From an uncultured Chlorobiaceae bacterium (GTDB taxonomy: Bacteria > Bacteroidota > Chlorobiia > Chlorobiales > Chlorobiaceae), in the NCBI GenBank assembly GCA_903920215.1, contig CAIXLG010000060.1, positions 1 through 32,764 of the forward strand: a stretch of 32,764 nucleotides of DNA, written 5' to 3'. The notes under the pieces were generated by a model, which did no database searches, was not told the DNA's origin, and worked only from the letters and a program-made list of their open reading frames with translations. The position numbers were made by a program, and so were the translations under genes. Shown here piece after piece: positions 11,468 to 32,764 of this stretch (position 1 is the stretch's first letter; the number at the start of each line of letters is the position of its first letter).

Positions 11468-11490
11468 GATGTATTTTCTTGAGCGTACAC

Positions 11491-16238: not shown

Positions 16239-16276
16239 TTGCTCATGATGTGATTTGTTTATTGCATCATGAGCAA
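16239..16276. terminator. 12-bp perfect stem-loop
   Basis: TTGCTCATGATG (16239-16250) pairs exactly with CATCATGAGCAA (16265-16276) around a 14-base loop and is followed by TTTAAAATG. It probably ends transcription of the small exported peptide gene. Confidence 0.5.
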
Positions 16277-16292
16277 TTTAAAATGAATGGGG

Positions 16293-16388: not shown

Positions 16389-16390
16389 CC

Positions 16391-16478
16391 TTGGAAAAAT
16401 TCACTTTCGACTTCAATAAAGGCGGGGATGGTTATCAGTTAAGCTACAGACCTGTATGGTCGGCTATTTTGTTTGTAA
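16391..16478 (+). pseudogene. Possible 5' fragment of an unknown gene, cut at the MacA junction
   Basis: From a TTG at 16391 the frame reads EKFTFDFNKGGDGYQLSYRP followed by VWSAILFV, which looks like real protein. After about 16478 it passes into sequence that belongs, in another frame, to the MacA-like gene. This is best explained as the start of a gene fused by deletion to the tail of macA. I do not recognise it. Confidence 0.3.
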
Positions 16479-17009: not shown

Positions 17010-18979
17010 GCTCTATGCTTGAACTAGTTGATGTTCATCGGACATATCAAATCGGGGATAGTACTGTTCATGCATTGCGTGGTGTTTCCGTGACGATAGA
17101 GCAGGGAGAATTTGTTGCTATCATGGGGGCTTCGGGGTCAGGAAAATCTTCGCTGCTTCAAATTCTTGGTCTTCTGGATAAACCAGACAAAGGGGAGTAC
17201 CTGATTTTTGGCAATAATGTTAATACACTTTCCGAAGATGAACAGGCCGGAGTGCGGAATAATGTTGCTGGCTTTGTGTTTCAACAGTTTCATCTGCTCA
17301 AGCGAATGGACATTGTCGATAATGTTCGGCTTCCATATATCTATAGCGGGATTAAAGAAGATTTTCGTCAAGAGGCTGTAAAACGCCTCAAGATGGTTGG
17401 ACTTGAACAAAGAATTGATCATACCCCCAATCAGCTTTCAGGAGGCGAGCAGCAGCGGGTAGCTATAGCCAGAGCGCTGGTTCGTGATCCATTGATCATC
17501 TTTGCTGATGAGCCGACTGGCAATCTTGATACTAAAAATTCTGCCGAGATCATGAAGATACTTCAAGGACTTCATGCTGAGGGTAAAACCATCATCATGG
17601 TTACTCATGAAAATGAGATCGCCGCGTATGCTGGACGTGTCATCGCCATGCGGGATGGTATCATTGTTTCCGATGAGCGCAAACCGGGAATGGAGCCAAC
17701 AGCTAAAGTTGCCGGAGAGAGCGGGTTTGACATTCGAAGTGCCGAAATGGGCTCATTATGGCAGAATGGACGTTTTATAGGGTTTATTGCCCAAGCTTTT
17801 CAGGCCATTCTTGCTAATAAGATGCGTTCCTTTCTCTCCGTCCTTGGTATTCTTGTAGGAGTTGCGTCGGTGATTGCCATGATGGCTCTTGGTGATGGTG
17901 CTAAAGAGGCCATGCAGGAGCAGTTAAAGTCTATGGGCTCAAACATGCTCTCAATCCGGGCTGGATCGGCTAAAATAAGGGGCGCTGCTCAAGGTGCTGG
18001 TGCTATTGCCCGATTTACCTTTCTTGATGTCGATGCAATTGCTTCGCTTCACACATTAGTGAAAAATGCTTCCGGGGTAGTAAACGGAAACGGTATGATT
18101 GTTTTCGGAAATAAAAACTGGACGACAAGCCTTAACGGGGTGGGATATGATTACGGTACTATGCGAGCAACGATACCTTCGATTGGGAGGTGGTTTACCC
18201 CTGAAGAGATCCAGACACGGCAAAAATTAGCGATTGTTGGTGTGACTGTTGTCAAGCAGCTTTTCGACAACACCAATCCTATAGGCAAGACCGTTAAAAT
18301 CAACAGAATTAATTTTACGGTTATCGGCATTGCTCCAGCAAAAGGATTTTCTGGGCCTCAGGATCAGGATGACGTAGTGTTCATTCCTGTAACAACGGCA
18401 ATGTACCGTGTGCTTGGAAAGACGTATCTCAGTGGCATTTTTGTTGAGGTTGCCCAACCAAACCTGATTCAAAGAACCACCAGTGCGATAAACGAGCTGA
18501 TCCGTAAAAGGCACCGGCTTAAAGCGGATGATGATTCGTTCAATATCAGGGATATGACAGAAGTTCAGCAGATGCTTAGCAGCACAACTCAGACCATGAG
18601 TCTTCTGCTTGGTTCGATAGCGGCTATCTCGCTGGTTGTCGGAGGTATCGGCATTATGAATATCATGCTTGTTTCCGTGACCGAAAGAACCAGAGAGATT
18701 GGACTTCGTAAAGCCATTGGTGCCAGGAAAAACGATATCATGCTCCAATTCCTTGTGGAATCGGTAGGAATGACAGTCAGTGGTGGTTTTATCGGAATTA
18801 TTTTAGGGATTGGTGTCTCCCTCATTCTTTCCTTTTTTGCTGGCTGGGCGGTAAAGACCTCTCTGATATCGGTTGTGCTTGCAACGGCTTTTTCAGTACT
18901 TACCGGCATTTTCTTTGGTTTGTGGCCTGCAAGGAAAGCTGCGGATCTTAAACCAGTTGAAGCCCTCCGTTACGAATAA
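17006..18979 (+). CDS. macB: MacB-type ABC exporter (ATPase-permease fusion)
   Basis: This 657-residue protein fuses an N-terminal ATPase (about 1-225) to a four-helix MacB permease (about 265-657). ATPase motifs are Walker A GASGSGKS at 41-48, Q-loop FVFQQFHLL near 90, signature [15 protein letters not shown] at 144-158, Walker [10 protein letters not shown] at 164-172 and switch His201. The permease has its first helix near 277-300, a large periplasmic domain, and three C-terminal helices with the FtsX pattern [20 protein letters not shown]. MacB proteins export substrates such as macrolides, siderophores or peptides from the periplasm via MacA and TolC. The gene is complete, but its adaptor partner just upstream lacks its N-terminal half and no outer-membrane channel is nearby. 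The name is by family; the substrate is unknown. Confidence 0.9.
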
Positions 18980-19041
18980 AAAAAGAGTGCGGAACATGTT
19001 TTAATGCATAAAATGCCAACAGAAAGATAGTTATCTTGGGC

Positions 19042-19379
19042 TACTGCATTTCAAGAAACACGCTTGCCGATGCACCCAATAGGGGAAAAACGATTGAGGC
19101 TGCTTTGGGCAAAAGCTAGCTGGAGAAAAATACACTGCTGCTGATTTTCTGGCTCACTCGCAGGTGCCTAATCGAAGCATAACTGCCATTGCGTATAACA
19201 AGATCATCATTATTGATCAGAGTACGCTGTTTAAGGGCTCCTTCAATTTTACCAAGGTTTCTGAAAAGAAGAATGCTGAAAACCTTTTGGTACTCAATGG
19301 CAATCATGCGTTGGTGGATCGATATATCCAGAATTTTAAAACACATCAACAGCACTTTGAGGAGTATGCGGGGAAGTAA
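19042..19379 (+). pseudogene. Phospholipase-D-superfamily nuclease (Nuc-like), decayed C-terminal part
   Basis: The last ~90 residues match the C-terminal HKD half of Nuc-like endonucleases: GEKYTAADFLAHSQVPN, then IAYNKIIIIDQSTLFKGSFN, then FTKVSEKKNAENLLVLNG. The catalytic HxKxxxxD reads YNKIIIID, with Tyr replacing the essential His. Upstream residues (RNTLADAPNRGKTIEAALGKS, then a stop) lie in another frame, so the gene also carries a frameshift. Nothing of the first HKD half is visible. Normal members are about 150-200 residues. Non-functional remnant with a strong terminator after it. Confidence 0.7.
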
Positions 19380-19427
19380 CTTTTGTTGCTGAACCAAAAG
19401 TATATCAAGCCAATAACCGGTCATAAA

Positions 19428-19455
19428 AAAAGCTCCCTCTTGTGAAGGAGCTTTT
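19428..19455. terminator. Strong bidirectional rho-independent terminator
   Basis: AAAAGCTCC (19428-19436) and GGAGCTTTT (19447-19455) form a 9-bp stem. A T-run follows on the plus strand, and on the minus strand the stem is followed by seven T residues. It serves the Lys-rich exported gene from the right and the nuclease remnant from the left. Confidence 0.85.
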
Positions 19456-19494
19456 CTTGTTAATACAATCAGCCTTTTGTTAACAGGGTCAATC

Positions 19495-19746
19495 TTATTT
19501 GCCTGCTTTTGCTTTTCTTTCAGCTCTTTTCTCTGCGTGTCTTGCTCTTCTTGCTTTCTTCGCTTTTTTGTGAGCTTTTTTCTCAGCTTTGATTTCTTCT
19601 TTTATCTCAGCCTTCTTTTCAGCTTTTGCTTCGATTTTTGCTTCAGTCTTTACTTCTGCCTTTTTGTCACCGGCGAAAGAAACCCCACCAAAAATTCCGG
19701 TCATTGCGAGTGAAACGATAATGCCAGCGATAAGATGCTTTTTCAT
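19495..19746 (-). CDS. Small exported Lys/Ala/Glu-rich protein
   Basis: This 83-residue protein has a good signal peptide (MKKHLIAGIIVSLAMTGIFG, cleavage after SFA near 25). The highly charged mature region is built of repeating KAE/KKA units (KAEVKTEAKIEAKAEKKAEI) and ends in an Arg/Lys-rich stretch (KKARRARHAEKRAERKAK). It should form a long soluble helix with strong positive charge in the periplasm. Roles such as nucleic-acid or envelope-polymer binding are speculation. It is followed by a strong terminator and faces away from the deleted IS3 derivative. Low complexity prevents a family call. Confidence 0.65.
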   Translation of the reverse strand: MKKHLIAGIIVSLAMTGIFGGVSFAGDKKAEVKTEAKIEAKAEKKAEIKEEIKAEKKAHKKAKKARRARHAEKRAERKAKAGK

Positions 19747-19881
19747 TTGTGTCTGTAGATAGAGTTTTTTAGTTACCTGAAAGACAGATTATTCTGCGTC
19801 CTAATTCTTAATACGCATGTCGTTGTACTTTCTTTCAATAAATTTTGCAGCTGGGTAAAATATTACACACCTGTTGACGCA
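19747..19881. other. Upstream region of the Lys-rich exported gene
   Basis: This AT-rich stretch should carry the promoter of the minus-strand gene at 19495-19746. I see no convincing boxes and no coding frame. Confidence 0.3.
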
Positions 19882-20270
19882 TTCCCTAAAAACGGGACCA
19901 TTCTAAACTAGAGTTTTCTGGCATTGAGTATCTTGAAACAAACAAAAGATCATTGCTATGAAAAAGACGAAATGCACCGAAGAGCATATTGCTTTTGCTC
20001 TTCGTCAGGCAGATTCCGGCACCCGTATCGAAGAGGTCCGTCGACAGATGGGCATCTCGCAAGCCACCTTTTTCAATTGGAAAAAGAAGCTTGGCGGAAG
20101 GAATTACAATGAGCTCAGACAGCATTATTACTTGAGTGACTTAACACCCATGGAATTCATTGAAAAACAACAAAATGGGCCGGAGAACTCCACTTATAGT
20201 CGGTACAGTTAACGAGATTGACGCACTGTACTGATAAACTTTAGCTTAGAATGGTCCCGTTTTTTGGGAA
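19882..20270 (+). mobile_element. Internally deleted IS3-family derivative (MITE-like)
   Basis: The ends are near-perfect inverted repeats: TTCCCTAAAAACGGGACCAT on the left and, reverse-complemented, TTCCCAAAAAACGGGACCAT on the right, continuing TTCTAA.CTA.AGTTT on both. The 389-bp interior encodes 84 residues (19958-20212). The first ~50 are an IS3 OrfA helix-turn-helix (TEEHIAFALRQADSGTRIEE, MGISQATFFNWKKKLGG). The rest (YNELRQHYYLSDLTPMEFIE) resembles the extreme C-terminus of OrfB, where similar transposases read RPH.SLGYLTPMEF. The whole DDE core is deleted, so it could move only with help from a full copy elsewhere. Confidence 0.72.
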
Positions 20271-20330
20271 GGGGTTACCTCTCATCATCCTAAAGCCAGC
20301 AAGGTCTCGAAACATTGGCTCATGTCCCTT

Positions 20331-21107
20331 TTAAACTACAAACGGATATTGTCCACCATCCATCGATACGGTAACTCCGGTAACATAACCAGCCTTTTCT
20401 GAAGCCAGGAATGTTACCAAATCGGCGATTTCATGGGGTAACGCCATACGTCCTAATGGAATGCGTTCAAGGATGTTTTTACGAGCATTTTCTATCGAAA
20501 TACCTTCCAAGCGAGCAGTTGTGGATACACCCACAACAAGACGTTCTGTTTCAGTAAAACCTGGATTCACGCCGATGACTCGAACACCCTTGTTTGCATA
20601 GGCGGAACCTAAGCCTGCGGTTGCCAGCATCAGAGCGGAATTTGCCGCACCACCAGCAATGTGTGTCGGCATTGCAACTTTGCCACCGATCCCAATAACA
20701 TTTACAATAACCCCATGCCCACGGCTGGCCATCCGCTTTACCAAAGGATCGATAACATTGATATACGAGAAGAATTTTGCATCCATTGCGTTACGCCATG
20801 CAACAGGAGAAAGCTCTTCTGGTAAAACACGTTTGGCTGCACCAGCAGAGTTAACCAGCACATCGATGGGGCCAAATTGTTTTTCAACCTCATCAATTAT
20901 TCGGAGAGCATCTTCCGGATGAATCAAGTCAGCCGTAAGCCCTACAGCATCGGGTAAATTGCGAAGAGCGTTGTCAATATTGATTTGTGACCGCGAGCAG
21001 ATTGCAACTTTGGCGCCTTCCTCCAAGAAAGCTTTGGCGCAAGCGAGACCAATTCCTTTAGATCCCCCGGTTACAAGCACTACTTTTTCCTCCAGATCTA
21101 AGCGCAT
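20331..21107 (-). CDS. Short-chain dehydrogenase/reductase-like protein lacking the YxxxK motif
   Basis: This 258-residue protein has an SDR Rossmann fold: cofactor loop TGGSKGIG at 13-20, NSAG (for NNAG) at 86-89, the helix-4 region, and PGFTETERLV after the active site. Where the catalytic Tyr-x-x-x-Lys should stand, the sequence is AGGAANSAL (151-159), with Gly152 and Asn156 in the Tyr and Lys positions. The nearby catalytic Ser is also not evident. The C-terminus GYVTGVTVSMDGGQYP is typical. I recall SDR relatives with this same HIAGGAAN pattern, so it may be a subfamily trait and not damage. A strong ribosome-binding site (AGGAGGTGA) precedes the ATG. It lies 38 bases after the MFS gene, in the MarR-controlled cluster. 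Substrate unknown. Confidence 0.8.
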   Translation of the reverse strand: MRLDLEEKVVLVTGGSKGIGLACAKAFLEEGAKVAICSRSQINIDNALRNLPDAVGLTADLIHPEDALRIIDEVEKQFGPIDVLVNSAGAAKRVLPEELSPVAWRNAMDAKFFSYINVIDPLVKRMASRGHGVIVNVIGIGGKVAMPTHIAGGAANSALMLATAGLGSAYANKGVRVIGVNPGFTETERLVVGVSTTARLEGISIENARKNILERIPLGRMALPHEIADLVTFLASEKAGYVTGVTVSMDGGQYPFVV

Positions 21108-21145
21108 ATAGTCACCTCCTGTTTAATATTGAGTGTCACTCTCAT

Positions 21146-22375
21146 CTACTTACTGCATACAATTTCCAACGTGCCGATATGCCGTATCGTTAGGCGATCC
21201 CAACCTATAGCTACCCAAAAACCAACCTGTCCCAGCGTTGCTGTCACTGTCAGCACGATAGCCGCAGACAATGTTGGGTTGTGACCAAATCCTACCATAT
21301 AAGTGCAAAGAGCTCCAACCGACATTTGTATGAACCCGTACAGGCCCGCAGCTGATCCGATAACAGTCGGATTACCACTCAATGCTTTCGTCAAGGCTCC
21401 CGGACTTGCAGTCCCTGCTCCAATTCCAAAAACAAACATCAATCCAATCGCGGATACTATCGTCAACCAGCTGGCGAGTGTAACTACAAGCAGGACAATT
21501 GCACTTAGCACACTTACAGCGTTTCCTACAATCAAAAGACGTTCAATAGTAAACCTATGGACGAGATGACGTGTGATAGCATTTCCCATTCCCATCCCAA
21601 CCATCAGCAAGCTAAGGTAAAGTCCGACTTCACCAAGGGAACGATGTAGTTGTGAAGAAACAATAAAAGGTGCTGCAGCAATAAACGAATAAATGGAAGT
21701 TGTCGCGCAACCCCCGCCCAATGCAAACCCCATAAATGACGGAGAACGTAACAGTAGCGTATAATCACTCGCTAATGTAGTTATTTTGATATTCCCTATT
21801 GGTCTAACAGTTTCTGGTAATAGATACCATGTGAACATGAGCGTGACACCACCGAGCAGGGCTAAGAAAAGGAATATGGAGCGCCATCCAAAAATCAGAG
21901 AAAGCCCTGAACCCAGTAACGGAGCTAATCCCGGCCCGACCATCATCATGAGGTTCAGGATGGCAAGTTTTGCGACGGCATCGTTCGACTGGGAGGTATC
22001 ACGCACAATAGCTCGCCCAAGTGCCAGTCCTGCACAACCACCCAAAGCCTGAAATAGCCTTGCTGCAACAAGTGTATGTACGTCTGCCGACAGGGCTGCC
22101 ACAAAACCAGCTACTGTATAGAGGGCAAGTCCCAAAATTAGCATAGGACGACGTCCCATGCTATCTGAAAGTGGTCCATAAACAAGTTGTCCGCCTGCGA
22201 GGCCCAGTATGTATATGCTGACGGTCATTTGCATGGCAGATCTGCTTGCACCGAAGGTGCGTGCAGCATCCGGCAAGGCAGGAACAAACATGTGCATTGC
22301 CAAGGTACCACTGATGACAATCAACACCAGCAACCAGAGAGACGGACTTGTTCTTTCTGTATGTCGAGATATCAT
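21146..22375 (-). CDS. Bcr/CflA-family MFS drug efflux transporter
   Basis: This protein of about 409 residues has 12 predicted helices and would be an inner-membrane proton antiporter for drugs. It shows the Bcr/CflA features: the first helix with MHMFVPALPDAARTFGAS, MFS motif A as GPLSDSMGRRPML (about 68-80), RLFQALGGCAGLALGRAIVRD (about 107-127) and the GPGLAPLLGSGL motif. The ATG at 22375 is chosen over the GTG three bases upstream because GGGAG lies at better spacing. It is between marR and the SDR on the same strand, the usual arrangement for a MarR-repressed efflux operon. Substrate unknown. Confidence 0.88.
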   Translation of the reverse strand: MISRHTERTSPSLWLLVLIVISGTLAMHMFVPALPDAARTFGASRSAMQMTVSIYILGLAGGQLVYGPLSDSMGRRPMLILGLALYTVAGFVAALSADVHTLVAARLFQALGGCAGLALGRAIVRDTSQSNDAVAKLAILNLMMMVGPGLAPLLGSGLSLIFGWRSIFLFLALLGGVTLMFTWYLLPETVRPIGNIKITTLASDYTLLLRSPSFMGFALGGGCATTSIYSFIAAAPFIVSSQLHRSLGEVGLYLSLLMVGMGMGNAITRHLVHRFTIERLLIVGNAVSVLSAIVLLVVTLASWLTIVSAIGLMFVFGIGAGTASPGALTKALSGNPTVIGSAAGLYGFIQMSVGALCTYMVGFGHNPTLSAAIVLTVTATLGQVGFWVAIGWDRLTIRHIGTLEIVCSK

Positions 22376-22502
22376 CACTCTCCCATCTCAGTGTTAGAGA
22401 CTCTATATAGCAGACATTCAATTGCCGATTTTGGGAGCTTTACCGAATAGCTTGAATACAAAGAAATGTTTTTGCTGGCTTTGTTATCGAGGTATGGCTT
22501 CA
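22376..22502. other. Gap between marR and the efflux gene
   Basis: This 127-bp gap is long enough for a separate promoter for the efflux gene. I see no obvious MarR palindrome and no terminator, so read-through from the marR promoter is likely. Confidence 0.3.
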
Positions 22503-22970
22503 TTAAAGGTCCTTCCTCTCAATCGAAAATAGTGTTTCCGCCATGCGTTCAAGAACATGGAAAGCATTTTTCAGTTCGTCTTCCGAGACACAAGCAAGCA
22601 CAGGATTACGATTTTTGCTAATCTGTTCATCAATGAGCTGAGCGGTTGATTTGCCGAGTGTTGTCAGTTGGATAGTTTTTGATCGCCGGTCGATGCCCTC
22701 AACACGCTCAACAAACTTGCTAGATTCAAGTACATCTAAGAGTCGAACAACTGCTGAACTGTCTAGCGAAAGTGATGCTGCCAAATCTTTTTGACACATC
22801 TGTGTCGGGGATCGGGCTATATGTATTAGTGGTAACCACATTGGCTCTGTGAGACCAAATGGTTGCAGCTTACGATTGAGGATGCGTCGCCATTGTCGGT
22901 TAATCTGACCCATGAGAAACATGAAGTCCCGGTGAATGTGCTCAATATTTGAATTATCTGAAATTACCAT
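22503..22970 (-). CDS. MarR-family transcriptional regulator
   Basis: This protein of about 155 residues has a winged helix (about 55-120: QPFGLTEPMWLPLIHIARSP, CQKDLAASLSLDSSAVVRLL, wing RVEGIDRRSKTIQLTTLGK) and N/C-terminal dimerisation helices. The conserved DRRSK.I.LT wing is diagnostic. The start at 22970 is chosen over an upstream TTG at 23033 because a good promoter (TTGATA-17-TATAAT) occupies 23005-23033, so a transcript would begin near 22998. A palindrome lies between the promoter and this start. It probably represses itself and the downstream efflux transporter and SDR, and is relieved by a ligand such as a phenolic compound or a drug. Confidence 0.87.
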   Translation of the reverse strand: MVISDNSNIEHIHRDFMFLMGQINRQWRRILNRKLQPFGLTEPMWLPLIHIARSPTQMCQKDLAASLSLDSSAVVRLLDVLESSKFVERVEGIDRRSKTIQLTTLGKSTAQLIDEQISKNRNPVLACVSEDELKNAFHVLERMAETLFSIERKDL

Positions 22971-22979
22971 AAGATTGTG

Positions 22980-22989
22980 TGATATATCA
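22980..22989. promoter_or_regulatory. Putative MarR operator palindrome
   Basis: TGATATATCA is a perfect 10-bp palindrome located just after the -10 box and before the marR start codon, where an autorepressor would bind. The position is suggestive; binding is inference. Confidence 0.45.
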
Positions 22990-23004
22990 ATAATAAGCAA
23001 GCTA

Positions 23005-23033
23005 ATTATATGAAAAATGGTTGACTTTATCAA
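23005..23033 (-). promoter_or_regulatory. Sigma-70 promoter of the marR cluster
   Basis: On the minus strand TTGATA (23033-23028) and TATAAT (23010-23005) are separated by exactly 17 bases. This is a near-consensus promoter and places the transcript start near 22998. Confidence 0.7.
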
Positions 23034-23381
23034 TCCTCTGCAAGGAAGTTTATCATGTTGGAGAAACTTTATTATTTCCTGATATCACTCCTCTTTTTGT
23101 GCTATCCAAAATTTCGATCTTTAATGCCAAATATCAGTAGTGTCCGGTTAAAAAGTGTGTCGTAGATAAGCAGTACAAGTGATGAGGGCCTGGCCCCTCG
23201 CACTCGGCTTGCAGGAGCAGGGTGCAAACCACCGTATGCCGGGTTGGTTAAAAGCCAGGGTCGTGAGCGATACGGAAAAGGCATCTTCAAGATGTCATAT
23301 GCGAGCCAAGGAAGCCGACACGACTACTCCAACTGTTCGTCAGAAATCTGATTATAAGATGTCCCGAAATGATGTTGAGAT
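23034..23381. other. Gene-poor stretch with a GC-rich structured segment
   Basis: I see no supported gene. TAGTGTCCGGTTAAAAAGTG at about 23140 resembles an IS end. The segment 23185-23300 is GC-rich and rich in short complementary runs (GGGCCTGGCCCC; GCCGGGTTGGTTAAAAGCC). It could be a structured RNA or a group II intron fragment (a GTGTG 5'-like box lies at 23155), but no reverse transcriptase gene is present. Confidence 0.3.
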
Positions 23382-23458
23382 ATTTGTTGTATAATCATCA
23401 GTAAGTAAACCCCTCCTTTTTATCGACAAGATTTGTTGTATAACAATCAATATGTAAA
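23382..23458. repeat. Two 28-bp direct repeats, 49 bp apart
   Basis: ATTTGTTGTATAA begins both copies (23382-23409 and 23431-23458), followed by .. ATCA.TA.GTAAA, giving 24 matches of 28. The second contains the palindrome TTGTTGTATAACAA. They look like a regulator's binding sites or recombination sites left behind. The stretch 23459-23615 has no gene. Confidence 0.45.
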
Positions 23459-23615
23459 GCTACTGTAATGAAATATATTATAAGTAGTTAAGTGTAATTC
23501 AGATTCCGAGGCCCACCTTTTTGCCTCCCTGTATTTTGCTATGGATATCGATATGGATAGGGCTGTATTGAGAGTAAATTTCTGGGCGGCTAACTGAGCA
23601 AAATGGACTATGAAA

Positions 23616-23660
23616 ATCAAATATTAGCCAGTAAAAACGGTTTGCTGTTCAATATTTGAT
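23616..23660. repeat. Inverted repeat resembling the abiE operator
   Basis: ATCAAATATT (23616-23625) is mirrored perfectly by AATATTTGAT (23651-23660), with interior similarity GCCAGTAA against the reverse of CTGTTC. The whole block matches 26347-26387, in front of abiEi, at most positions. Here it lies beside the 3' end of higA with no abiE gene next to it. Confidence 0.5.
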
Positions 23661-23676
23661 GCCTAATTATTAACCG

Positions 23677-24018
23677 TTAATGGCTTGATTGAGCATTTCC
23701 GGCCATATTGGCCTCCTTCGGAGCTAAAGGGATTATGCTTTTTAGCAGGTGATCTTCTGCATTCTTTGCATGATAGAGATCCCATCGCTGTTGGAGATTC
23801 ATCCAGTAGTCAGCGGAAAGGTTGAAATATTTTGCGAGTCTCAGTGCTGTGGCCGGTGTTACACCGCGTCTGCCATTGATGATTTCATTAACCCGCTGAT
23901 AAGGAACGTGGATAGCGTCAGCTAATTGCCGCTGGGTAATTCCCATGGGGTTCAAAAACTCTTCAAGAAGCATCTCGCCCGGATGAGTCGGTGCACGATG
24001 TGTCGGTATGCGTATCAT
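23677..24018 (-). CDS. higA: HigA-family antitoxin (XRE helix-turn-helix)
   Basis: This 113-residue protein shows the HigA hallmarks: THPGEMLLEEFLNPMGITQR at the N-terminus, then the HTH (about 27-62, QLADAIHVPYQRVNEIINGR, RGVTPATALRLAKYF) and SADYWMNLQQRWDLY. HigA neutralises the mRNA-cleaving toxin HigB and represses the operon. HigB normally precedes HigA, but here the upstream partner is only a 16-codon stub that overlaps the start codon (TGATG). The antitoxin is therefore an orphan. It could still repress other loci or protect against a related toxin. AAGAAG serves as a weak ribosome-binding site. A second, truncated higA lies at 26161. Confidence 0.85.
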   Translation of the reverse strand: MIRIPTHRAPTHPGEMLLEEFLNPMGITQRQLADAIHVPYQRVNEIINGRRGVTPATALRLAKYFNLSADYWMNLQQRWDLYHAKNAEDHLLKSIIPLAPKEANMAGNAQSSH

Positions 24019-24065
24019 TGTTGCTTCTTTTTATCTGTTGCCTGATCCTTAACGGATTGTATCAT
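24015..24065 (-). pseudogene. HigB toxin remnant (16 codons)
   Basis: The frame MIQSVKDQATDKKKQQ ends in a TGA that overlaps the higA ATG. HigB toxins commonly begin with MIxSF(K/R)xK, so the first residues look like a true HigB start joined directly to the last codons before higA. The catalytic body (about 75 residues) is missing. It could now act only as a leader peptide for higA. Confidence 0.45.
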
Positions 24066-24449
24066 GGTAACACGGCTATCATGCTATTTGTTAAAAGTAA
24101 CTAATTATTTTCGGATGCGCAGTCAAATACTTGACAATGAATATGTTGTTTATCAACACCATGAAAAAGAGTTAAAATACACTTCTTTTAGCGTTATTTA
24201 GCGTTCGCTTGACAGCGCAAGAACTTGGGGGGCGGAGTTCATAACGTACAGTGGCAACCTTTTTATTTCTGTCGGGAATTACCTGCGGTGATGACGTGTG
24301 GCTGGTGTATATTCAATGAGAAAATTGATAATTAACACCCATAGTCCTTCGTAGTGTAACGGTGTGAAGCAAACTCAGCTTGCTTGGCGATGAAAATCGA
24401 ATCAACCCGGAACTGAAAGGACGCAGAGAAAAGATGATTATAAAACCTT
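24066..24449. other. Intergenic region between higA and the AlbA_2 gene
   Basis: I see no gene in these 384 bases. CATGATA occurs twice in direct orientation on the minus strand just ahead of the higB stub (about 24063-24090), a plausible HigA operator. A TTGACA at about 24133 has no matching -10 box. An AAAGGACGCAGAGAAAAG tract precedes the next gene. Confidence 0.35.
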
Positions 24450-25850
24450 TTGAATTTTACTGAGCTCCTAAAAAATATTGCAGCAGGCGAATCTCTGACG
24501 TTGGAACTCAAAAAGTCAACAGCAGAGAAGGAACGTGCTTGTCGCAGTTTGTGTGCTTTGGCTAACGGCCTCGGTGGGCAAGTGGTGTTTGGTGTAACTC
24601 CATCCGGCAAAGTGGTTGGCCAAAAAGTGACTGATCGTACCCTTGAAGAACTGGCACAGGAGTTTCAGGGTTTTGAGCCACCACTCTCCCTGCAATTTCA
24701 GCGCATACCCCTTTCAGAAGGGGATAGTCTTGGATTGGAAGTTCTCATGGTACAAGTTGAGCGTGATATACATGCCCCCATTTCTTTTCTCGGCATACCT
24801 TATGAGCGCGTGCTGAACACAACGCGCGTCATGCCTCGAGCCAATTACCAACGCCTGTTGATAGAGTCCATGCACACCACCGATCGTTGGGAAATCCAGC
24901 AGGCTGTCGGGTGCAGTGAGGAAGATCTCGATGTCCATGAAATACTTGTCACTCTCGAAGAGTCCATTCGACGCGGGCGTAGCGTTGATCCTGGTACCCG
25001 CGACACCTTGGCAGTATTGCGTGGTTTAGGTTTGCTTGTCAGTGGCGACCTACTATCACGCGCAGCCGTTGCCTTGTTTTGCAAAGATGAAGTGGCGTTA
25101 CCAGAATTTCCACAATTTAATCTCCGTGTAGCCCGCTTCAAAGGCACCAGCCGCGATGAGTTTCTCGACAACCGGCAATATACCGGCAATGCTTTTGCAC
25201 TCATGCGTCGGGCTGAACGCTTTTTGATTGACTGGCTTCCGGTGGCAAGCAAGATCGTATCGGGCCAAATGGCGCGCATCGACATGCCAGCGCTTCCTAC
25301 CGAAGCTGTGCGTGAAGCGCTGGCCAACGCTTTTATCCATCGCGATTATACCAGTGCTGCCGGCTCTGTAGCGGTTGCCTTGTACGACGACCGTCTGGAA
25401 ATCATTTCTCCCGGTGAGCTTCATTTTGGATTGACCCCTGAAATACTTTACCAAGCTCATGAATCAAAACCATGGAACCCTTGGATTGCCAAGGTGTTCT
25501 ACCGCCGTGGGCTAATCGAAACCTGGGGGCGTGGGACGCTCAAAATTGCCAACCTGATGAAGACGGCTGGCTTGCCAGTGCCTACGCTGCATGAAAATAC
25601 GGGCAATGTAGTGATGACATTTAAACTGCCAGAGCAGCGCAGCGGAGTAAATGAGGGAGTAAATGTCGGAGTAAATGCTCTATTTGCATACATTCAGGCA
25701 AATCCTGGTCATAGGGCAGGCGAAATGGCTTCTTCCTTCAAGTTAACACAAAGGACTATAGAAAGATGGCTTAAGCAACTACGAGAAGCAGGTAAGATAG
25801 AGTTTATTGGCTCACCAAAAACCGGTGGCTACTATGGACAAGTATTCTGA
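24450..25850 (+). CDS. AlbA_2 (Schlafen-type) DNA-binding protein with GHKL ATPase domain
   Basis: This 466-residue protein has an N-terminal AlbA_2/Schlafen-like domain (about 1-120: LTLELKKSTAEKERACRSLC, ANGLGGQVVFGV at 38-49, DRTLEELAQEFQGFEPPL). A central GHKL-type ATP-binding domain (HATPase_c_4) has its N-box near 288-301 (REALANAFIHRDYT) and G-box YRRGLIETWGRGTLKI. After a linker of GVNEGVNVGVN repeats comes a C-terminal winged helix (ERWLKQLREAGKIEF). Such proteins are often called RecG-like helicases in error; they are putative regulators found with toxin-antitoxin and defence genes. The start is TTG (24450), chosen because homology begins at once with NFTELL. Intact. Role inferred only. 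Confidence 0.8.
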   Translation: MNFTELLKNIAAGESLTLELKKSTAEKERACRSLCALANGLGGQVVFGVTPSGKVVGQKVTDRTLEELAQEFQGFEPPLSLQFQRIPLSEGDSLGLEVLMVQVERDIHAPISFLGIPYERVLNTTRVMPRANYQRLLIESMHTTDRWEIQQAVGCSEEDLDVHEILVTLEESIRRGRSVDPGTRDTLAVLRGLGLLVSGDLLSRAAVALFCKDEVALPEFPQFNLRVARFKGTSRDEFLDNRQYTGNAFALMRRAERFLIDWLPVASKIVSGQMARIDMPALPTEAVREALANAFIHRDYTSAAGSVAVALYDDRLEIISPGELHFGLTPEILYQAHESKPWNPWIAKVFYRRGLIETWGRGTLKIANLMKTAGLPVPTLHENTGNVVMTFKLPEQRSGVNEGVNVGVNALFAYIQANPGHRAGEMASSFKLTQRTIERWLKQLREAGKIEFIGSPKTGGYYGQVF

Positions 25851-26088
25851 TTCCATCCAATCCAAGTCTATCGCAGTCGCTGTAGCGCCCTCCATCTCCA
25901 GGTTTTTGGGAGTGGTGCCGATTTTACCGGGAGAGTCTGCCGATCTCTATCAGGCAAGTCTTGATACGCTTATCGAAGAGTTAGGCGCTCGTTTCCCAGC
26001 ACTTTCTTTCTCCTCTTTGCCCAAAACTCAGCACTCAGCACTCAGCACTCAGCAGGCAGGCACCTCAGGCGAGGAGCAAATCAGTTAA
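25834..26088 (+). CDS. Fragment of an uncharacterised protein ending in heptamer repeats
   Basis: Starting at an ATG that overlaps the end of the AlbA_2 gene, 84 residues are encoded: MDKYSDSIQSK, then ISRFLGVVPILPGESADLYQ and ASLDTLIEELGARFP. The LPGES.x.Y...LD.LI.E pattern recalls the N-terminus of an unnamed protein family, the rest of which is missing. After about residue 63 the frame runs through the CTCAGCA array (HSALSTQQ) and into the direct repeat, where it ends. It is therefore a truncated gene whose 3' end was replaced by the repeat unit. Confidence 0.4.
   Translation: MDKYSDSIQSKSIAVAVAPSISRFLGVVPILPGESADLYQASLDTLIEELGARFPALSFSSLPKTQHSALSTQQAGTSGEEQIS
26027..26054 (+). repeat. 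CTCAGCA heptamer array, 4 copies
   Basis: Four perfect tandem copies of CTCAGCA. The array lies just outside the left 101-bp repeat. A six-copy array of the same unit lies outside the right repeat. Heptamer arrays of this kind are known in some photosynthetic bacteria, for instance cyanobacteria. Confidence 0.85.
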
Positions 26089-26157
26089 CTAAAAAGTGCA
26101 AGGGCTTGACGATCTGAGGCGTTCTAATAAAATTTACAAAACGAACCCATTCAGTTA
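26057..26157 (+). repeat. 101-bp direct repeat, left copy
   Basis: It begins CAGGCACCTCAGGCGAG and ends ACCCATTCAGTTA. It matches 28318-28418 at 97 of 101 positions; the four differences all fall in the first 40 bases. The pair brackets the abiE genes. It contains a sigma-70-like promoter (listed separately). Confidence 0.9.
26106..26133 (+). promoter_or_regulatory. Sigma-70-like promoter inside the left direct repeat
   Basis: TTGACG (26106-26111), 16 bases, TAAAAT (26128-26133). It points towards abiEi, 300 bases away. The identical boxes recur in the right repeat. Confidence 0.45.
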
Positions 26158-26160
26158 TTT

Positions 26161-26240
26161 GTAATTCCCATCGGGTTCAAAAACTCTTCAAGTGGTATTT
26201 CTCCTGGGTGAGTCGGTCCAGGGTGTTGGTATGCCTGACC
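26161..26240 (-). pseudogene. Second HigA fragment, cut at the direct repeat
   Basis: On the minus strand the frame reads AYQHPGPTHPGEIPLEEFLN then PMGI, closely matching residues 5-27 of the HigA at 23677 (THPGEMLLEEFLNPMGI). It stops at the boundary with the 101-bp repeat (26157/26161). This is the 5' end of another higA whose body was removed. The stretch 26241-26340 between it and the abiE operator shows no gene. Confidence 0.65.
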
Positions 26241-26346
26241 CCGCACTCGTCTTCCACCTCTTGCATGAGCATCGCTCAGTATGCCGCTTTTAGGACATCA
26301 AAGTTCTGCCTTGTCAACTCTGCTATAGATGGTTACTATTTGTAAT

Positions 26347-26387
26347 CAAATAAATGCCAGTAATCTTGGTTTACTGTCCAATATTTG
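26347..26387. promoter_or_regulatory. Inverted-repeat operator in front of abiEi
   Basis: CAAATAAATGCCAGTAATC and, on the other strand, CAAATATTGGACAGTAAAC form a long imperfect inverted repeat ending 50 bases before the abiEi start. AbiEi antitoxins are known to autorepress by binding inverted repeats in their promoter. A near copy lies at 23616-23660. Confidence 0.55.
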
Positions 26388-26436
26388 TTATTTATCGTGT
26401 GCATTTAATAGCCCTATTATGTAACAGATAGCCGCC

Positions 26437-27189
26437 GTGCCAACAGATTTCAGCATAGAACAGCTCAAAATGCGGTTTGCTCATCATCCTCACATTACCC
26501 GTGAAGAGTTGCTGGGCTTTTACAGGTCAGTGGAGCCTGATTTAAAAGAGTCAACATTTGCCTGGCGGATCTATTCGCTTAAAGAAAAAAGCCAGCTTAA
26601 GCCTATAAGGAGAGGTGTGTACACCTTCTCAACAAAGCCTCAGTTTCGCCCACAGATAGAGCCCAAACTAAGAGAGATAGCCCTAAAGCTTAACAAGGCG
26701 TTTCCTGTTGCTCGAAGGTGTGTGTGGAGCACCCAATGGCTGAACGAGTGGATGATTCACCAACCAGGTCGATTTTTGCTGTTGGTTGAGGTTGAAGCGG
26801 TGGCAACGGAATCAGTTTTTTATTTTCTGAAGGATGAGAAATACAAAAACGTCTATTTAAACCCTGATGAAAACCTCCTTGAGCGTTACGTTTATGAAGA
26901 AAGCGAGTCCATCATTGTTAAACCGCTGGTAACAAAAGCTCCTCTTGAAAAAGAACAGAAAATTGCCACGCCCTCACTTGAAAAAATATTGGTAGACATT
27001 TTTGTTGACCGTAAACTGTTCAGCGCTTTTCAAGGCAGTGAACTTGTGCATATTTTCAACACGCTCTACAGGACGTATGCACTCAACATCACCAAAATGA
27101 CGGCTTATGCCAAACGGAGAGCCAAAGATCAGGAACTGATTGATTTCATGACAAAAAACACCCTTCTCTCGGAGTTACTCAGCAAATGA
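26437..27189 (+). CDS. abiEi: AbiEi-like antitoxin of a type IV toxin-antitoxin pair
   Basis: This 250-residue protein has an N-terminal winged-helix-like region (about 12-62: HPHITREELLGFYRSVEPDL, STFAWRIYSLKEKSQLKPIR, RGVYTF). The C-terminal domain is mixed alpha/beta (about 75-250: CVWSTQWLNEWMIHQPGRFL, TPSLEKILVDIFVD, ELVHIFNTLYRTYALNITKM). This is the layout of AbiEi-type antitoxins, which counter the toxin without binding it and repress their own promoter. The start is a GTG at 26437 with a weak ribosome-binding site; an ATG at residue 12 is the alternative. The stop overlaps the toxin start (ATGA), so translation is coupled. Identification rests mostly on the partner gene and domain order. 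Intact. Confidence 0.78.
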   Translation: MPTDFSIEQLKMRFAHHPHITREELLGFYRSVEPDLKESTFAWRIYSLKEKSQLKPIRRGVYTFSTKPQFRPQIEPKLREIALKLNKAFPVARRCVWSTQWLNEWMIHQPGRFLLLVEVEAVATESVFYFLKDEKYKNVYLNPDENLLERYVYEESESIIVKPLVTKAPLEKEQKIATPSLEKILVDIFVDRKLFSAFQGSELVHIFNTLYRTYALNITKMTAYAKRRAKDQELIDFMTKNTLLSELLSK

Positions 27190-28283
27190 TCTTACCAGAG
27201 TCATATACGCCAGACTGGATCAGGAGAAAAAGGAACGATTACCGTAAGACCGCCCCTAACCCTGCCATTATGGAAAAGGTTATTTATGCCCTTTCCTTAG
27301 TCGAGCAGTTGGCTCAAACCGACCTTTCTTTTACCTTCAAAGGCGGAACAAGTCTCCTTCTGATTTTACCCGAACCTAAACGGTTCTCCATTGATGTAGA
27401 TATTGTTACCACCGAAAGCAGAGAAAAAATCGAAGCCGTTTTAACCGGCATTTGTTCGGGAGGTATATTCAGTAAATTCGAATTGGACGAACGGAGAAGC
27501 TATAAACCCGACATACCCAAAGCTCACTACAAACTCACTTTTTTTTCGCAGTCCGACAATAAAGAGCTATGGATCTTGTTGGATATTCTGTTTGAAGAGC
27601 ATGGCTACCCGGCCTTGCTGCAAGCGCCGATTATAAACGAGTGGATTCAGACAGACGATACACGGGTTACCGTTCAAATACCTTCCGCTGATTCCATCAC
27701 AGGTGATAAACTCACCGCTTTTGCCCCCAATACCGTTGGAATTCGATTCAGGGTTGAGGATACCGATGGAGGCATTACCGAAAAACAAATGGAGGTAATG
27801 AAACAACTCTTCGACATTGGTATTTTGTTCGACAGGATATCCAATCTCGATCATCTCAAGCAATCCTTTACTGCAACAGCACAAAAGGAGATTTCCTACA
27901 GAGGGGAGGTAAACATTACAACCGAGTCGGTATTGAACGATATTATCACCACCTCATTGATGATTGGCTCGCTGGGCAAGTTCTTTGATCCGAATCAAGA
28001 ATTTCAGCACATAGCAAAAGGTCTGACACAATTGAAGTCCTACATCTACTATGGGTCATTCCGTATCGATGATGCGGTATTGGCATCTTCCAAAGCAGCT
28101 TATCTGGCCGCCATGATCCTGACAGGTTATGAGGGAGAAATAAGACGATGGGCGGCGGGCAATGATATTACGAATTACAGCATAGCTCCCATAGAGTACC
28201 AATTTCTCAACAAACGAAGAAACATCCCCGGAGCACCTTTGTTTTATTGGCATCAAACGTTGAGCTTGTTAGGGAAATTATAA
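27186..28283 (+). CDS. abiEii: AbiEii/AbiGii nucleotidyltransferase toxin
   Basis: This 365-residue protein of the DUF1814/AbiEii family has a DNA-polymerase-beta-like nucleotidyltransferase fold. Motif I GGTSL is at 53-57, the metal-binding SxDxD as FSIDVDI (D70, D72), a further acidic strand LLDILFEEHG near 131-140, and the GDKLTAFAP motif with K175. The C-terminal half is helical (about 200-365). AbiEii-type toxins block translation or modify tRNA, stopping growth and limiting phage. All key residues are present, so the toxin should be active and needs the AbiEi upstream. It is co-translated with abiEi (4-base overlap). The module sits between 101-bp direct repeats. Confidence 0.9.
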   Translation: MILPESYTPDWIRRKRNDYRKTAPNPAIMEKVIYALSLVEQLAQTDLSFTFKGGTSLLLILPEPKRFSIDVDIVTTESREKIEAVLTGICSGGIFSKFELDERRSYKPDIPKAHYKLTFFSQSDNKELWILLDILFEEHGYPALLQAPIINEWIQTDDTRVTVQIPSADSITGDKLTAFAPNTVGIRFRVEDTDGGITEKQMEVMKQLFDIGILFDRISNLDHLKQSFTATAQKEISYRGEVNITTESVLNDIITTSLMIGSLGKFFDPNQEFQHIAKGLTQLKSYIYYGSFRIDDAVLASSKAAYLAAMILTGYEGEIRRWAAGNDITNYSIAPIEYQFLNKRRNIPGAPLFYWHQTLSLLGKL

Positions 28284-28317
28284 ACGTCCAGTCCCACCGC
28301 AAGCTCCATCATGCCAT

Positions 28318-28418
28318 CAGGCACCTCAGGCGAGCAGCAAATCCGTTAATCAAAAAGTGCAAGGGCTTGACGATCTGAGGCGTTCTAATAAAATTTACAA
28401 AACGAACCCATTCAGTTA
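28318..28418 (+). repeat. 101-bp direct repeat, right copy
   Basis: 97 of 101 bases match 26057-26157. It starts 35 bases after the abiEii stop and ends 23 bases before the six-copy CTCAGCA array. The promoter boxes TTGACG (28367-28372) and TAAAAT (28389-28394) are conserved and point towards lolD, but a terminator intervenes. Confidence 0.9.
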
Positions 28419-28441
28419 GTTGCAAAAAGGGTGTTCCTCCG

Positions 28442-28483
28442 CTCAGCACTCAGCACTCAGCACTCAGCACTCAGCACTCAGCA
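28442..28483 (+). repeat. CTCAGCA heptamer array, 6 copies
   Basis: Six perfect tandem copies. Together with the four-copy array at 26027, these mark the outer borders of the repeat-abiE-repeat block. Copy number is likely to vary by slippage. Confidence 0.9.
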
Positions 28484-28509
28484 TAGGATTGTAGCTTTTC
28501 CGTAAATTC

Positions 28510-28533
28510 AGCTCCGTCTTTCGGGGCTTTTTT
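28510..28533 (+). terminator. Rho-independent terminator before lolD
   Basis: AGCTCCG and CGGGGCT form a 7-bp stem (one G-T pair) around TCTTT, followed by TTTTT. It would stop transcripts from the abiE module or the right repeat before they reach the core genes. A TATAAT at 28538-28543 right after it may be the -10 box for lolD, with no clear -35. Confidence 0.75.
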
Positions 28534-28624
28534 GTTATATAATACCATAGAGGTTGTATGTGTAAAAAGCTTATGACGTTAACGGCTGGACTTGAAAAAA
28601 CCAACATTACGGAAACAGTAGCTG

Positions 28625-29368
28625 ATGGCTGAAGTCATTCTTAAACTTGAGGGTATCCGCAAAGAGCTTGAACTTTCCAAGGATATCCGTCAGACCATCA
28701 TTCCCAATCTTTCCGTTGAAATCATGGCTGGCGACTTTGTTGCTATTACAGGGCCTTCCGGTTCCGGTAAATCCACGCTGCTCTACATTATGGGCGGGCT
28801 TGACAAGCCTACTGCAGGGACTGTGTGGCTTGATGGAGAGGCGATTAACGAAAAGAGTGAACCGGAAATGAACAAGATCCGGAATGAAAAGATAGGGTTT
28901 ATCTATCAGTTTCATTTTTTACTGCCAGAGTTTAATGCTGTCGAGAATGTCAGCATGCCGATGATGATCAATGGAAAGCGCACGAGGAAGGAGATCAAGG
29001 ATAGGGCAAAAATGCTGCTCGATCTTGTTGAGATGCAGAACAAGTATACCAACAAGCCTAGCCAGCTTTCCGGGGGTCAGCAGCAACGTGTTGCTATTGC
29101 CCGGGCACTGGCAAACGACCCGAAGGTGCTTCTTGGTGATGAGCCGACCGGCAACCTCGATTCGCGCTCGGCGAATAATGTCTATAATCTTTTTGACCGT
29201 CTGAACAGGGAGCTGCATCAGACCGTTATAGTTGTTACTCACGATGAGGAGTTTGCCAACCGTGCAGGGCGGAGGATCAATCTTGTTGATGGAAAGATTG
29301 AGAGCGACGTGCGGTTGCGGCCGATGGCAGAAAATGCGGTTGAACAGCAGTTGCAGGATCGGCATTAA
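28625..29368 (+). CDS. lolD: LolD-like ABC transporter ATPase
   Basis: This 247-residue ATPase is of the lipoprotein-release/MacB-type group. Walker A GPSGSGKS is at 43-50, Q-loop [11 protein letters not shown] around 93-103 (LolD proteins read FQ.H.LLPEF), signature [15 protein letters not shown] at 148-162, Walker [14 protein letters not shown] at 167-179 and switch His in VVTHDEEF. With LolC/LolE permeases, not in this window, LolD powers extraction of lipoproteins from the inner membrane for transfer to LolA. The C-terminus has a short extra tail. It opens the intact + strand cluster with the cyclase and ligase; there is a 23-base gap to the next gene. LolD is the best family guess, but other FtsX-type ATPases are close. 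Confidence 0.78.
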
Positions 29369-29391
29369 TATCTTTATACCCATAGTTTTCC

Positions 29392-30930
29392 ATGTCATCG
29401 TTACTCAACCAGATCAAGCAGACTCACCCTCATCTTTACAAGGCATTTTCAACCCTTGCGGATGGAGAGCAGCATCTCGGCCGTATCAAAGAACTTGATC
29501 GTTACTGGGAGCTCCTGAAGCATCCTGTTCGACAGGTCATCATGCCGGGTAGCGACCTGCCCAAAGATGCTGTCATCAGCGGCGAATATGATTTGATCTA
29601 TGCGGGCGGGACGCTAAGCTTGCTTCATGCCGCAGTGATGGCGGGAAAGTATGGCAGGAAGGTTATGATTTTTGATCGTCAGACACCTGCGAAATCCACC
29701 AGAGACTGGAATATTTCAAGAAATGAGCTTCTGAATCTCTCAGCTACCGGTTTGTTTACGGAGAGCGAGATCGATTCGGTTATTGTCCGCCGCTACAAGA
29801 CCGGCTGGGTTGAATTTTACAAGCCGGATGGCAGCCAGAAGAGGCTCTCTATGGAAAATGTGCTCGATTGTGCTGTCAATGCCGACAAGCTGCTTGGCAT
29901 GGCAAAAGAGAAGGTGACGGCAGTTGCAGGGAGCACTGTTCTTGCAGAGCGCTCTTTTTCCTTCTGCTACCGGTTTGACGATCATATTGTTGTCAAGATT
30001 GAGGACGGAAAAGGCAAGGCATTCTATTACAAGGCGAAGGTGCTTGTTGATGTCATGGGGATACTCTCACCCATTGCCTTGCAGCTTAACGAAGGTGTTC
30101 CTCAGACTCATGTCTGCCCGACCGTTGGCACAATAGCGAGCGGTTTTGAAGATGTTGATTTTGATACCGGTGAAATTCTCGCAAGCATAGGGCCTGCCGA
30201 CATGGTCCCGGGCAAGGGACGGCAGCTGATATGGGAGGGGTTTCCTGCCGAAGAGTCGCAGTATATCACCTATCTTTTCTTTTATGACGAGGCGGACTCT
30301 CAGAACGACAAATCACTGCTCGGCCTTTTTGATGCCTATTTCCGCAAGCTTCCTGATTATAAAAAACCCGGAAAGGATTTTGTTGTTCATCGCCCGGTGT
30401 ACGGTATTATTCCTGCTTATTTTCATAACGGTTTCAACCGTACACGTGAGATTGCCGACGACCGCATTCTTCTTTTCGGTGACGCGGCTTCACTTGGCTC
30501 TCCCCTCACTTTTTGCGGGTTCGGGTCGATGGTTCGCAACCTGGCGCATCTGACGGCCGATCTTGACAGGGCGATTGAGGAAAACGATTTTTCTAAAAAG
30601 CATTTGGAAAAAATCAGTGCCTACGAACCCAATGTCGCTTCGATGGCTAATTTGATGAAGTATATGTGTTTTAACTCTGCTACCGATGAGCCGAACTTTG
30701 TCAATGATCTCATGAATGAGGTCATGATTGTCCTTGATGAACTGCCCGAGCGCTACCGACAGGCGATGTTTCGCGATGAGATGAAGATTGAGGATTTGAT
30801 GATGGTGATGCTTCGGGTTGCCTGGCGTTATCCGAAAGTGCTGGTGGCGACATGGGAGAAGCTTGGAATACAGGGCTCTTTCGGCTTTCTGAAAAATCTT
30901 GCCGGCTGGGCATTTTCACCCGTCAGATAA
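29392..30930 (+). CDS. cruA: CruA/CruB-family lycopene cyclase (FAD-dependent)
   Basis: This 512-residue flavoprotein has an N-terminal Rossmann dinucleotide-binding segment ([20 protein letters not shown], 66-85, ending at D95 in VMIFDR). The second FAD motif is [16 protein letters not shown] at 363-378. This matches the CruA family of carotenoid cyclases in green sulfur bacteria and cyanobacteria, which convert lycopene to gamma-carotene on the way to chlorobactene (CruB forms beta-carotene in brown species). Which of the two it is cannot be told by eye. CruA proteins run to roughly 500-plus residues, so the length fits. It lies between lolD and ligA, 16 bases before the latter, all on one strand. 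This gene is the main evidence for a Chlorobi host. Confidence 0.82.
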
Positions 30931-30946
30931 TCTTTTCTTTCTGTCA

Positions 30947-32764
30947 ATGACTGATATCATAAGCGCGTCTGAGGAGATAGCGCACATACGCAAAGAGATA
31001 GAGCGTCATAACCATCTCTATTACGTTGAGGCAAAGCCTGAACTCTCCGATTACGACTTTGACAAGCTTCTCGAAAAGCTTATAGCACTTGAACGGCAGT
31101 TCCCGGATCTTGTTACTCCCGACAGCCCCTCTCAGAGGGTTGGAGGGACAATTACGCGCGTATTTCCTGCGGTGCAGCATCGTGAACCAATGCTGAGCCT
31201 TTCAAATACATACTCACTTGGCGACCTTGAGGAGTTTTACAATCGGGTCAGAAAGCTTCTTCTGCTTGAAGGTGTCCACGAACAGGATATGGTTGCCGAG
31301 TTGAAGTTCGATGGAGTTGCTGTGAGCCTTCTTTATCGAAAGGGTATTCTGGTTCGTGGTGCAACACGGGGTGATGGAGTTCAGGGCGACGATATCACCG
31401 CAAACATTAAAACCATCCAGTCTATACCACTTAGGTTGCCTGATTTTGTCAGCCTGTTTGCTCAAGGTGAAGAGAGTGAGGTTGAGGTTCGCGGCGAAGT
31501 GTTTATGCGCAAGGAGGATTTCAAGCAGCTTAATGAGAGCCGTCCGGAAGAAGACCGGTTTGCCAATCCCCGCAATGCAACTGCGGGGTCGCTCAAACTG
31601 CAGGATTCCTCTGAGGTTGCCCGTCGCAAGATGAGTTTTGTCGCCTACTTCCTGAAAGGGTATGATGATGATGCGGGGTCACAATTTCTTAGACTCCGCC
31701 AGCTCGAAAAGCTCGGGTTTTATACCGGAGGGCATTACCGGTTGTGCCATGAACTGCCTGACATAAGCAGGTTTATACAAGAGTGGGATGAAAAGCGCTG
31801 GAAGCTTCCTTACGAAACCGACGGAGTGGTTCTGAAGCTCAACGATGCCCGACAGTGGGAAAAACTGGGTGCCACGGCTAAAAGCCCACGATGGGCAATC
31901 GCCTATAAATATCCCGCGCAGCAGGCAAAAACGGTACTGCAAGCTGTTGTGTTTCAGGTCGGTCGGCTTGGCACCATTACCCCGGTGGCAGAGCTTGAGC
32001 CGGTGCTGCTCGCAGGCTCAACAGTTTCGCGTTCTACCCTCCATAATTTTGATGAGATCGAGCGCCTTGGCGTCATGCTGCATGACCGGGTGATCATTGA
32101 AAAGTCAGGTGAGGTGATTCCAAAGGTGATCAGTGTTGTGCTTGATGAACGACCTCTCGATGCTGAAGCGGTGAGGGTGCCTTCTGTGTGCCCCGAGTGC
32201 GGGACTACTCTTGAAAAGCCGGAGGGTGAAGTCAGTTATTACTGTCCCAACGAGGATGATTGCCCTGCCCAGATAAGGGGAAGGCTGCTGCACTTTGCCT
32301 CGCGTGATGCCATGGATATCAAGACTCTCGGTAAAGCGCTGGTCGATCAGCTTGTTGACCTCAAGCTGGTGGGTGATGTTGGTGATCTTTATCTGTTGCA
32401 GGAGCCGCAGCTTGAAATGCTTGAAAGGATGGGCCGGAAATCAGCGCAAAATCTGGTGCGTGCTCTGGATGAAAGTCGTGAAAAAAGTTACGAGCGGTTG
32501 CTTTATGCGCTTGGTATACGCCATGTGGGTCGAGCAACGGCCCGCGAACTGGCGAGTGCTTATCCGTCATTCTCTCTGCTCAGGCAGGCAACCGAAGAGG
32601 AGCTTGCAACAGTGCCCGATATCGGGCCTGTGGTTGCCCGGAGTATCTGCGATTTCTTTTCAAAACCTTCACTGCCTGATTTCATTGAAAAGCTGGAAAG
32701 AGCCGGCTTGCCACTATGTGCTTCGGAGCCGAAAGAGCAGGTTAACAAAAAGTTTGAGGGGATC
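30947..32764 (+). CDS. ligA: NAD-dependent DNA ligase LigA (3' end outside the window)
   Basis: 606 residues are present; the usual length is about 670-680, so only the end of the HhH region and the BRCT domain are missing. The Ia domain shows YYxxxxPxxSDxDYD as [15 protein letters not shown] at 25-39. The nucleotidyltransferase domain has catalytic K120 in AELKFDG, followed by [25 protein letters not shown] and the ETDGVVLK motif. The OB fold contains [15 protein letters not shown]. The zinc finger has four cysteines (CPECG...[10 protein letters not shown]), and helix-hairpin-helix repeats follow. LigA seals nicks in DNA replication and repair using NAD+. It starts at an ATG 16 bases after the cyclase stop. 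All catalytic residues are intact. Confidence 0.95.

Follow-up and report, generated by a model that had tools for sequence, protein, structure and literature searches.

An abiE toxin-antitoxin pair between remnants of a dispersed two-gene unit: a probable strain-variable islet in Chlorobiaceae

Related systems and the abiE locus

Islets of defence or toxin-antitoxin genes that vary among strains and are bounded by dispersed repeats are known. The locus described here resembles them in that the presence of a defence pair, abiEi-abiEii, at a fixed place in the chromosome varies from relative to relative, and the pair lies between direct repeats that would permit its loss; it differs in that the repeat corresponds to the 3' terminus of a two-gene unit not described before. 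The locus lies in DNA of an uncultured Chlorobiaceae bacterium (assembly GCA_903920215.1, contig CAIXLG010000060.1), and the whole stretch analyzed, 32,764 nucleotides, is called the window below. We think it probable that this is a strain-variable islet, in which an intact abiE pair was spliced 5' of a conserved ATP-binding cassette (ABC) gene by host recombination on a dispersed repeat derived from one gene of that unit, gene B. The likeness to integron gene cassettes is superficial only: there is cargo between repeated sites, but no integrase lies inside and the junctions fall at no fixed position; attC structures were not searched for. A closer parallel is homology-facilitated illegitimate recombination, which PMC3240628 defines as forming one end by homology and the other without homology. 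It is known there from experiments with competent species and E. coli conjugation, whereas at this locus it would be read from the junctions.

The pair itself is intact. The abiEi antitoxin gene (26437..27189, + strand; 250 aa, GTG start) matches Pfam DUF6577 (7.4e-81) and PADLOC AbiEi (1.8e-90), and the abiEii toxin gene (27186..28283, + strand; 365 aa) matches Pfam AbiEii (2.8e-17) and PADLOC AbiEii (7.8e-119). The two overlap by 4 bp, ATGA; the S. agalactiae abiE pair likewise overlaps by 4 nt (PMC3985639). The AbiEii translation carries the nucleotidyltransferase motif hGGx15DhD (GGTSLLLILPEPKRFSIDVD) as defined in PMC3985639, and motifs I/II, hG[G/S]x15DhD, are represented by KGGTSLLLILPEPKRFSIDVD, that is, GG, 15 residues and DVD. 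Motif IV (+DxxD) had no clear match when the translation was read by eye only. Upstream of abiEi is an operator-like inverted repeat (26347-26363/26371-26387), a single 17-nt pair with 76% complementarity and a candidate site for AbiEi autoregulation, which is kept in five abiE copies, some of them differing strongly in their further flanks. The ratio of nonsynonymous to synonymous substitution (dN/dS), calculated against six relatives, is 0.18-0.30 for abiEi and 0.11-0.26 for abiEii, values that point to purifying selection on both genes. The pair is thus a predicted member of the type IV AbiE toxin-antitoxin family (DUF1814; PMC3985639), with which it shares the two-gene operon, the 4-bp overlap, the AbiEi and AbiEii model matches, the hGGx15DhD motif and, putatively, the 5' inverted repeat. 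It differs in that its antitoxin is of the DUF6577 type and motif IV is not clearly recognizable.

Direct repeats at 26057-26164 and 28318-28425, spaced by 2261 bp, enclose the pair. They are 94% identical over 108 bp (102/108), which agrees with the 97/101 over 101 bp of the original prediction. Coordinates and profile matches likewise upheld the order given there, in which the repeats, with CTCAGCA heptamers on their outer sides only, frame a higA fragment, an operator and abiEi-abiEii. The arrangement is real and far beyond chance. As had also been stated, no integrase or transposase is found between the repeats, either among the open reading frames (ORFs) or by Pfam. The higA 5' fragment (about 26161..26236, - strand) is fused to the left repeat; directly after it, at 26237, similarity to the abiE locus of genome G033 begins.

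The repeat is the 3' end of a dispersed gene

Comparisons were made with 86 Chlorobiaceae genomes for the repeat, gene B, abiE and a 19-mer described below, and with 65 genomes of the genus for the ABC gene. The 108-bp repeat has four matches in its own genome and matches in 21 of the 86 genomes, some of them single, so that it is neither confined to this site nor always paired; the reverse would have spoken against a cassette. When it was aligned with its flanks and read for genes, the repeat proved to comprise the 3' end of gene B and its tail; this gene is present in 21/86 genomes and mostly encodes 111-134 aa with the signature ...NAxRSSGPRTDxGKRRSSxNAMRHGLT.... Gene B is the second gene of a unit whose first, gene A, encodes about 204 aa; in some genomes A and B overlap by 4 bp. 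The A-B unit is dispersed and unannotated, multicopy in some Chlorobium genomes, with its genes mostly adjacent (for example L076:2237-3183, L180:2625-3609 and L179:3940-4939), and in the searches made it was found only within the window's own genus. Neither gene has a Pfam, NCBIfam or significant PHROG match. AlphaFold models of both are all-helical (predicted local distance difference test scores 79 for A and 75 for B), with insignificant best matches in the PDB. A search for gene A on plasmids found none.

Both A-B copies at the abiE locus are decayed or truncated. The left repeat lies in a gutted unit that consists of a gene A 5' remnant (25845..25993, + strand; 149 bp, 92-99% identical to intact gene A of G033, G071, G072 and G073), the A-B intergenic spacer (26005..26054, + strand; 90% identical to the G072 spacer) and the gene B 3' end with its tail, which is repeat copy 1 (w1; 26057..26164, + strand). 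The spacer includes the left heptamers (26026-26054, + strand), 4.1 units according to Tandem Repeats Finder (TRF). The right repeat, copy 2 (w2; 28318..28425, + strand), is again the gene B 3' end and tail, preceded by the last 35 bp of gene B before the repeat (28283..28317, + strand), which match gene B of G071 and G073 exactly and are joined bluntly to abiEii. Gene B therefore runs from 28283 on, and 28280-28375 aligns to its residues 80-111. Being remnants of the 3' end of a dispersed gene, the repeats are no special cassette ends, and the notion of a unique att-like site was discarded.

The heptamers fared similarly. CTCAGCA gave 84 exact 21-mer matches genome-wide, at about 41 places by our count, and this occurrence as microsatellites rules out the special breakpoints that had been suggested. 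The left array is the normal spacer array of an A-B unit, and the right array (28442..28483, + strand; 6 units by TRF) is found in the corresponding position in relatives that lack abiE; heptamers on the outer sides only are thus the normal anatomy of A-B remnants. Literature searches on Chlorobium heptamers and on the core 19-mer returned nothing relevant. Two loci of G073 (L072:1-560 and L066:1-300) contain tandem-like reiterations of repeat, spacer and heptamers together with an array of the 9-mer CAGGCACCT, which suggests slippage or unequal exchange.

Filled, empty and alternative sites in related genomes

The right anchor of the locus is a conserved ABC ATPase gene (LolD-like; 28625..29368, + strand; Pfam ABC_tran), which has a DNA match in 65/65 genomes of the genus. 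An empty site with a single repeat, which the original prediction had named as support for a cassette, was found in G061 (C98:17450-17574). This site has the same right flank and the window's left flank with both deletion scars, keeping the same A' and heptamer-CAGGCAGG scar; no abiE was found anywhere in the G061 genome, which is about 99% complete. At the same locus of G033, G071 and G072 an intact gene B is followed by a single repeat and abiE is absent there, and in G037 and G080 higA is directly 5' of the ABC gene with no A-B unit at that place.

abiE is present in 8/86 genomes. In G033 (C16; L089, about 4076-7010) and G073 (C250; L066) it adjoins a pyridoxamine-oxidase-like gene, so named from its translation without a profile search; the orthologous locus lacks abiE in G000, G061, G071 and contig C77 of G073. 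Because abiE is present at the ABC locus and at the oxidase locus in some genomes and absent in others, there are two chromosomal sites for it, both polymorphic. The G033 copy has no flanking repeats. In G073, contig C250 carries heptamers, repeat, higA fragment and abiE as one block with 96% identity to 26027-28282 (2259 bp), so the linkage of repeat, higA and abiE is not private to the window allele. The repeat/higA fusion is also found in G072 at the ABC locus.

The window and contig C98 of G061 are approximately 100% identical from 8784 to 25600, about 16.8 kb (in nearly every 500-bp bin of 9001-25500), and about 94% identical from about 25620 to 32764. The drop coincides with a 12-bp tandem repeat (25643-25677) in a Schlafen-type gene. 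So sharp a change could stem from a recent transfer or from a chimeric contig. The empty-site comparison is independent of it, since it lies wholly inside the diverged part.

Junctions and a probable route

The right junction reads TATA|AACGTCC, compared with TATA|GCC at the native abiEii end and C|AACGTCC in gene B, and has zero overlap. The join falls inside the abiEii stop codon, changing TAG to TAA, 35 bp 5' of the repeat. With one homologous and one illegitimate end, the locus matches the pattern expected of homology-facilitated illegitimate recombination. Repeat/heptamer homology may have produced one side of the insertion, the repeat, higA fragment and abiE travelling as a single block like that of G073_C250; at the other, the abiEii stop codon would have been joined bluntly, by an illegitimate event, to gene B. 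The resulting direct repeats could then permit deletion of the pair, or its exchange with other strains, by RecA-dependent recombination. A worn gene B end as the repeat, together with the single-repeat site of G061 that lacks abiE, makes ordinary recombination the most likely agent rather than a dedicated cassette system. The locus would be a concrete case of a toxin-antitoxin pair entering and leaving a chromosome without a mobility gene of its own, with a filled and an empty site available for comparison together with a second site, likewise polymorphic.

A 19-mer at the right end of the A-B unit

The core of the repeat is a 19-mer, TTTACAAAACGAACCCATT, at 26133..26151 in copy 1 and 28394..28412 in copy 2 (both + strand). 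With at most one mismatch it occurs at about 70 places in 27/86 genomes (among them L217-L256), and the reversed control at none; in a phylum sample, matches outside the genus were near the reversed-control level, and none was found in viral contigs. Among distant A-B units similarity ends at ...CCCATT, that is, the 19-mer marks the right end of A-B. It also occurs without gene B in at least a dozen unrelated contexts. At one such site (L260-L289), genus-conserved sequence starts about 20 bp downstream and the left side is common to six genomes only. A second 19-mer as the left terminus of A-B was considered and rejected, a near copy upstream being present in G051_C4 only. Peptide strings from the three frames of the 19-mer, such as KTNPI, QNEPI and KRTHF, presumably recur in hypothetical proteins of other phyla.

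A tentative reading, which we hold to be possible but doubtful, is that A-B with its right-terminal 19-mer is an undescribed mobile or recombinogenic element whose scattered 3' ends, together with isolated 19-mers, serve as recurrent recombination platforms that swap toxin-antitoxin and other genes between strains. This by-product may matter more than the islet: a 19-bp sequence that is scattered over many contexts within a genus and closes, on the right, a two-gene unit lacking both annotation and family matches.

Alternative explanations and the order of events

The cassette of the original prediction would be a dedicated mobile element with the 101-bp repeats as recombination sites and the heptamers as breakpoints, inserted and excised precisely. 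Part of that proposal stands, in that G061 does show the same flanks around a single repeat without abiE, and abiE occupies two polymorphic loci, but such an empty site is also to be expected from ordinary homologous recombination. The repeat as a gene B 3' end, the heptamers spread through the genome and present in the A-B spacer, and the blunt illegitimate right junction, in a stop codon and at no fixed position relative to the repeat, all count against it, as do the G033 abiE without repeats and the lack of an integrase inside. Nor was the same repeat pair cleanly found around a second cargo. The sole candidate, contig C49 of G061, has two copies about 4.6 kb apart with an ORF of about 620 codons between them, and failed: the copies with their flanks are only about 76% alike and the thioesterase-side breakpoint lies outside the repeat. 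We therefore consider a dedicated cassette unlikely, and its supposed ends are better described as ordinary dispersed gene remnants. About as improbable, or slightly more so, is composite transposition, in which A-B would be an unrecognized transposon and two copies of it mobilized the abiE pair between them. A-B units are indeed multicopy and scattered over different loci, and in many distant instances they stop exactly at the 19-mer; yet both local copies have decayed, neither A nor B could be assigned to a known family, their models resembled no solved fold, neither a left terminus nor a target duplication was found, and the join in the stop codon is blunt. Least probable of all, and in our view very unlikely, is a repeat-driven misassembly that made the repeat pair or the G061 empty site. 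The assemblies are drafts and many repeat copies lie near contig ends, but repeat, higA fragment and abiE are linked in the independent contig G073_C250, G061 lacks abiE at its high completeness, and its sequence diverges as a single tract that starts at about 25.6 kb and takes in the ABC gene.

The order of events is less clear. Copy 2 shares sites 33, 34, 102 and 106 with the G061 repeat, copy 1 shares sites 102 and 106 with G073_C250, and at seven sites (22, 36-38, 47, 66 and 68) G061 stands apart from both copies, which are alike there. This pattern would fit a resident copy 2, an immigrant copy 1 and gene conversion between them. One of two orders is insertion followed by excision in the G061 line, which accounts for the shared left scar in one step; the other is a G061-like ancestor with later import, which accounts for the resident-type repeat of G061. 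In its full form the latter holds that G061 retains the ancestral single-repeat state, its left scar being a simple gene B deletion, and that homologous exchange with a strain bearing abiE brought abiE, the gene B segment and the second repeat into the window lineage. The G061 repeat has 2 and 3 differences, respectively, from its closest counterparts, the resident copies of G073_C150 and G071, and departs from both window copies at the seven sites just listed. Against this, the import requires a donor with abiEii already fused to gene B, and none was found; moreover the heptamer-repeat scar shared with G061 looks like the left end of the abiE block in G073_C250, a likeness that insertion and subsequent excision account for in a single step. 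We give an ancestral G061 a substantial chance, somewhat short of even, and this chance overlaps with that of a strain-variable islet formed by host recombination, since the latter covers both orders.

Several points weigh against such an islet. The seven site differences mean that the G061 repeat did not simply arise by recent excision from this very allele. Insertion into a G061-like single-repeat site leaves the 35-bp gene B segment 5' of copy 2 unexplained, unless it was borne by the donor. The compared genomes are mostly draft assemblies and several are metagenome-assembled genomes; G073_C250 may come from a co-binned strain, a second oxidase copy being present. Neither a donor molecule nor an excised circle nor a read-level junction came to light in the assemblies compared.

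Flanking genes

To the left of the locus, an intact higA-type antitoxin gene (23677..24018, - strand; Pfam HTH_3, 5.3e-13) is followed by the Schlafen-type gene (24450..25850, + strand), with Pfam matches to SLFN_AlbA_2 and HATPase_c_4. The latter sits between the leader of gene A and gene A; in G071 the same leader is directly 5' of gene A. Approximately 18 kb from the repeat pair, at 3890-7947, are transposase-type genes with rve/HTH_21 and Mu-transpos_C_2 domains. A 242-aa ORF (7966-8694) adjoins them, and the match to G061 starts just beyond it, at 8784.

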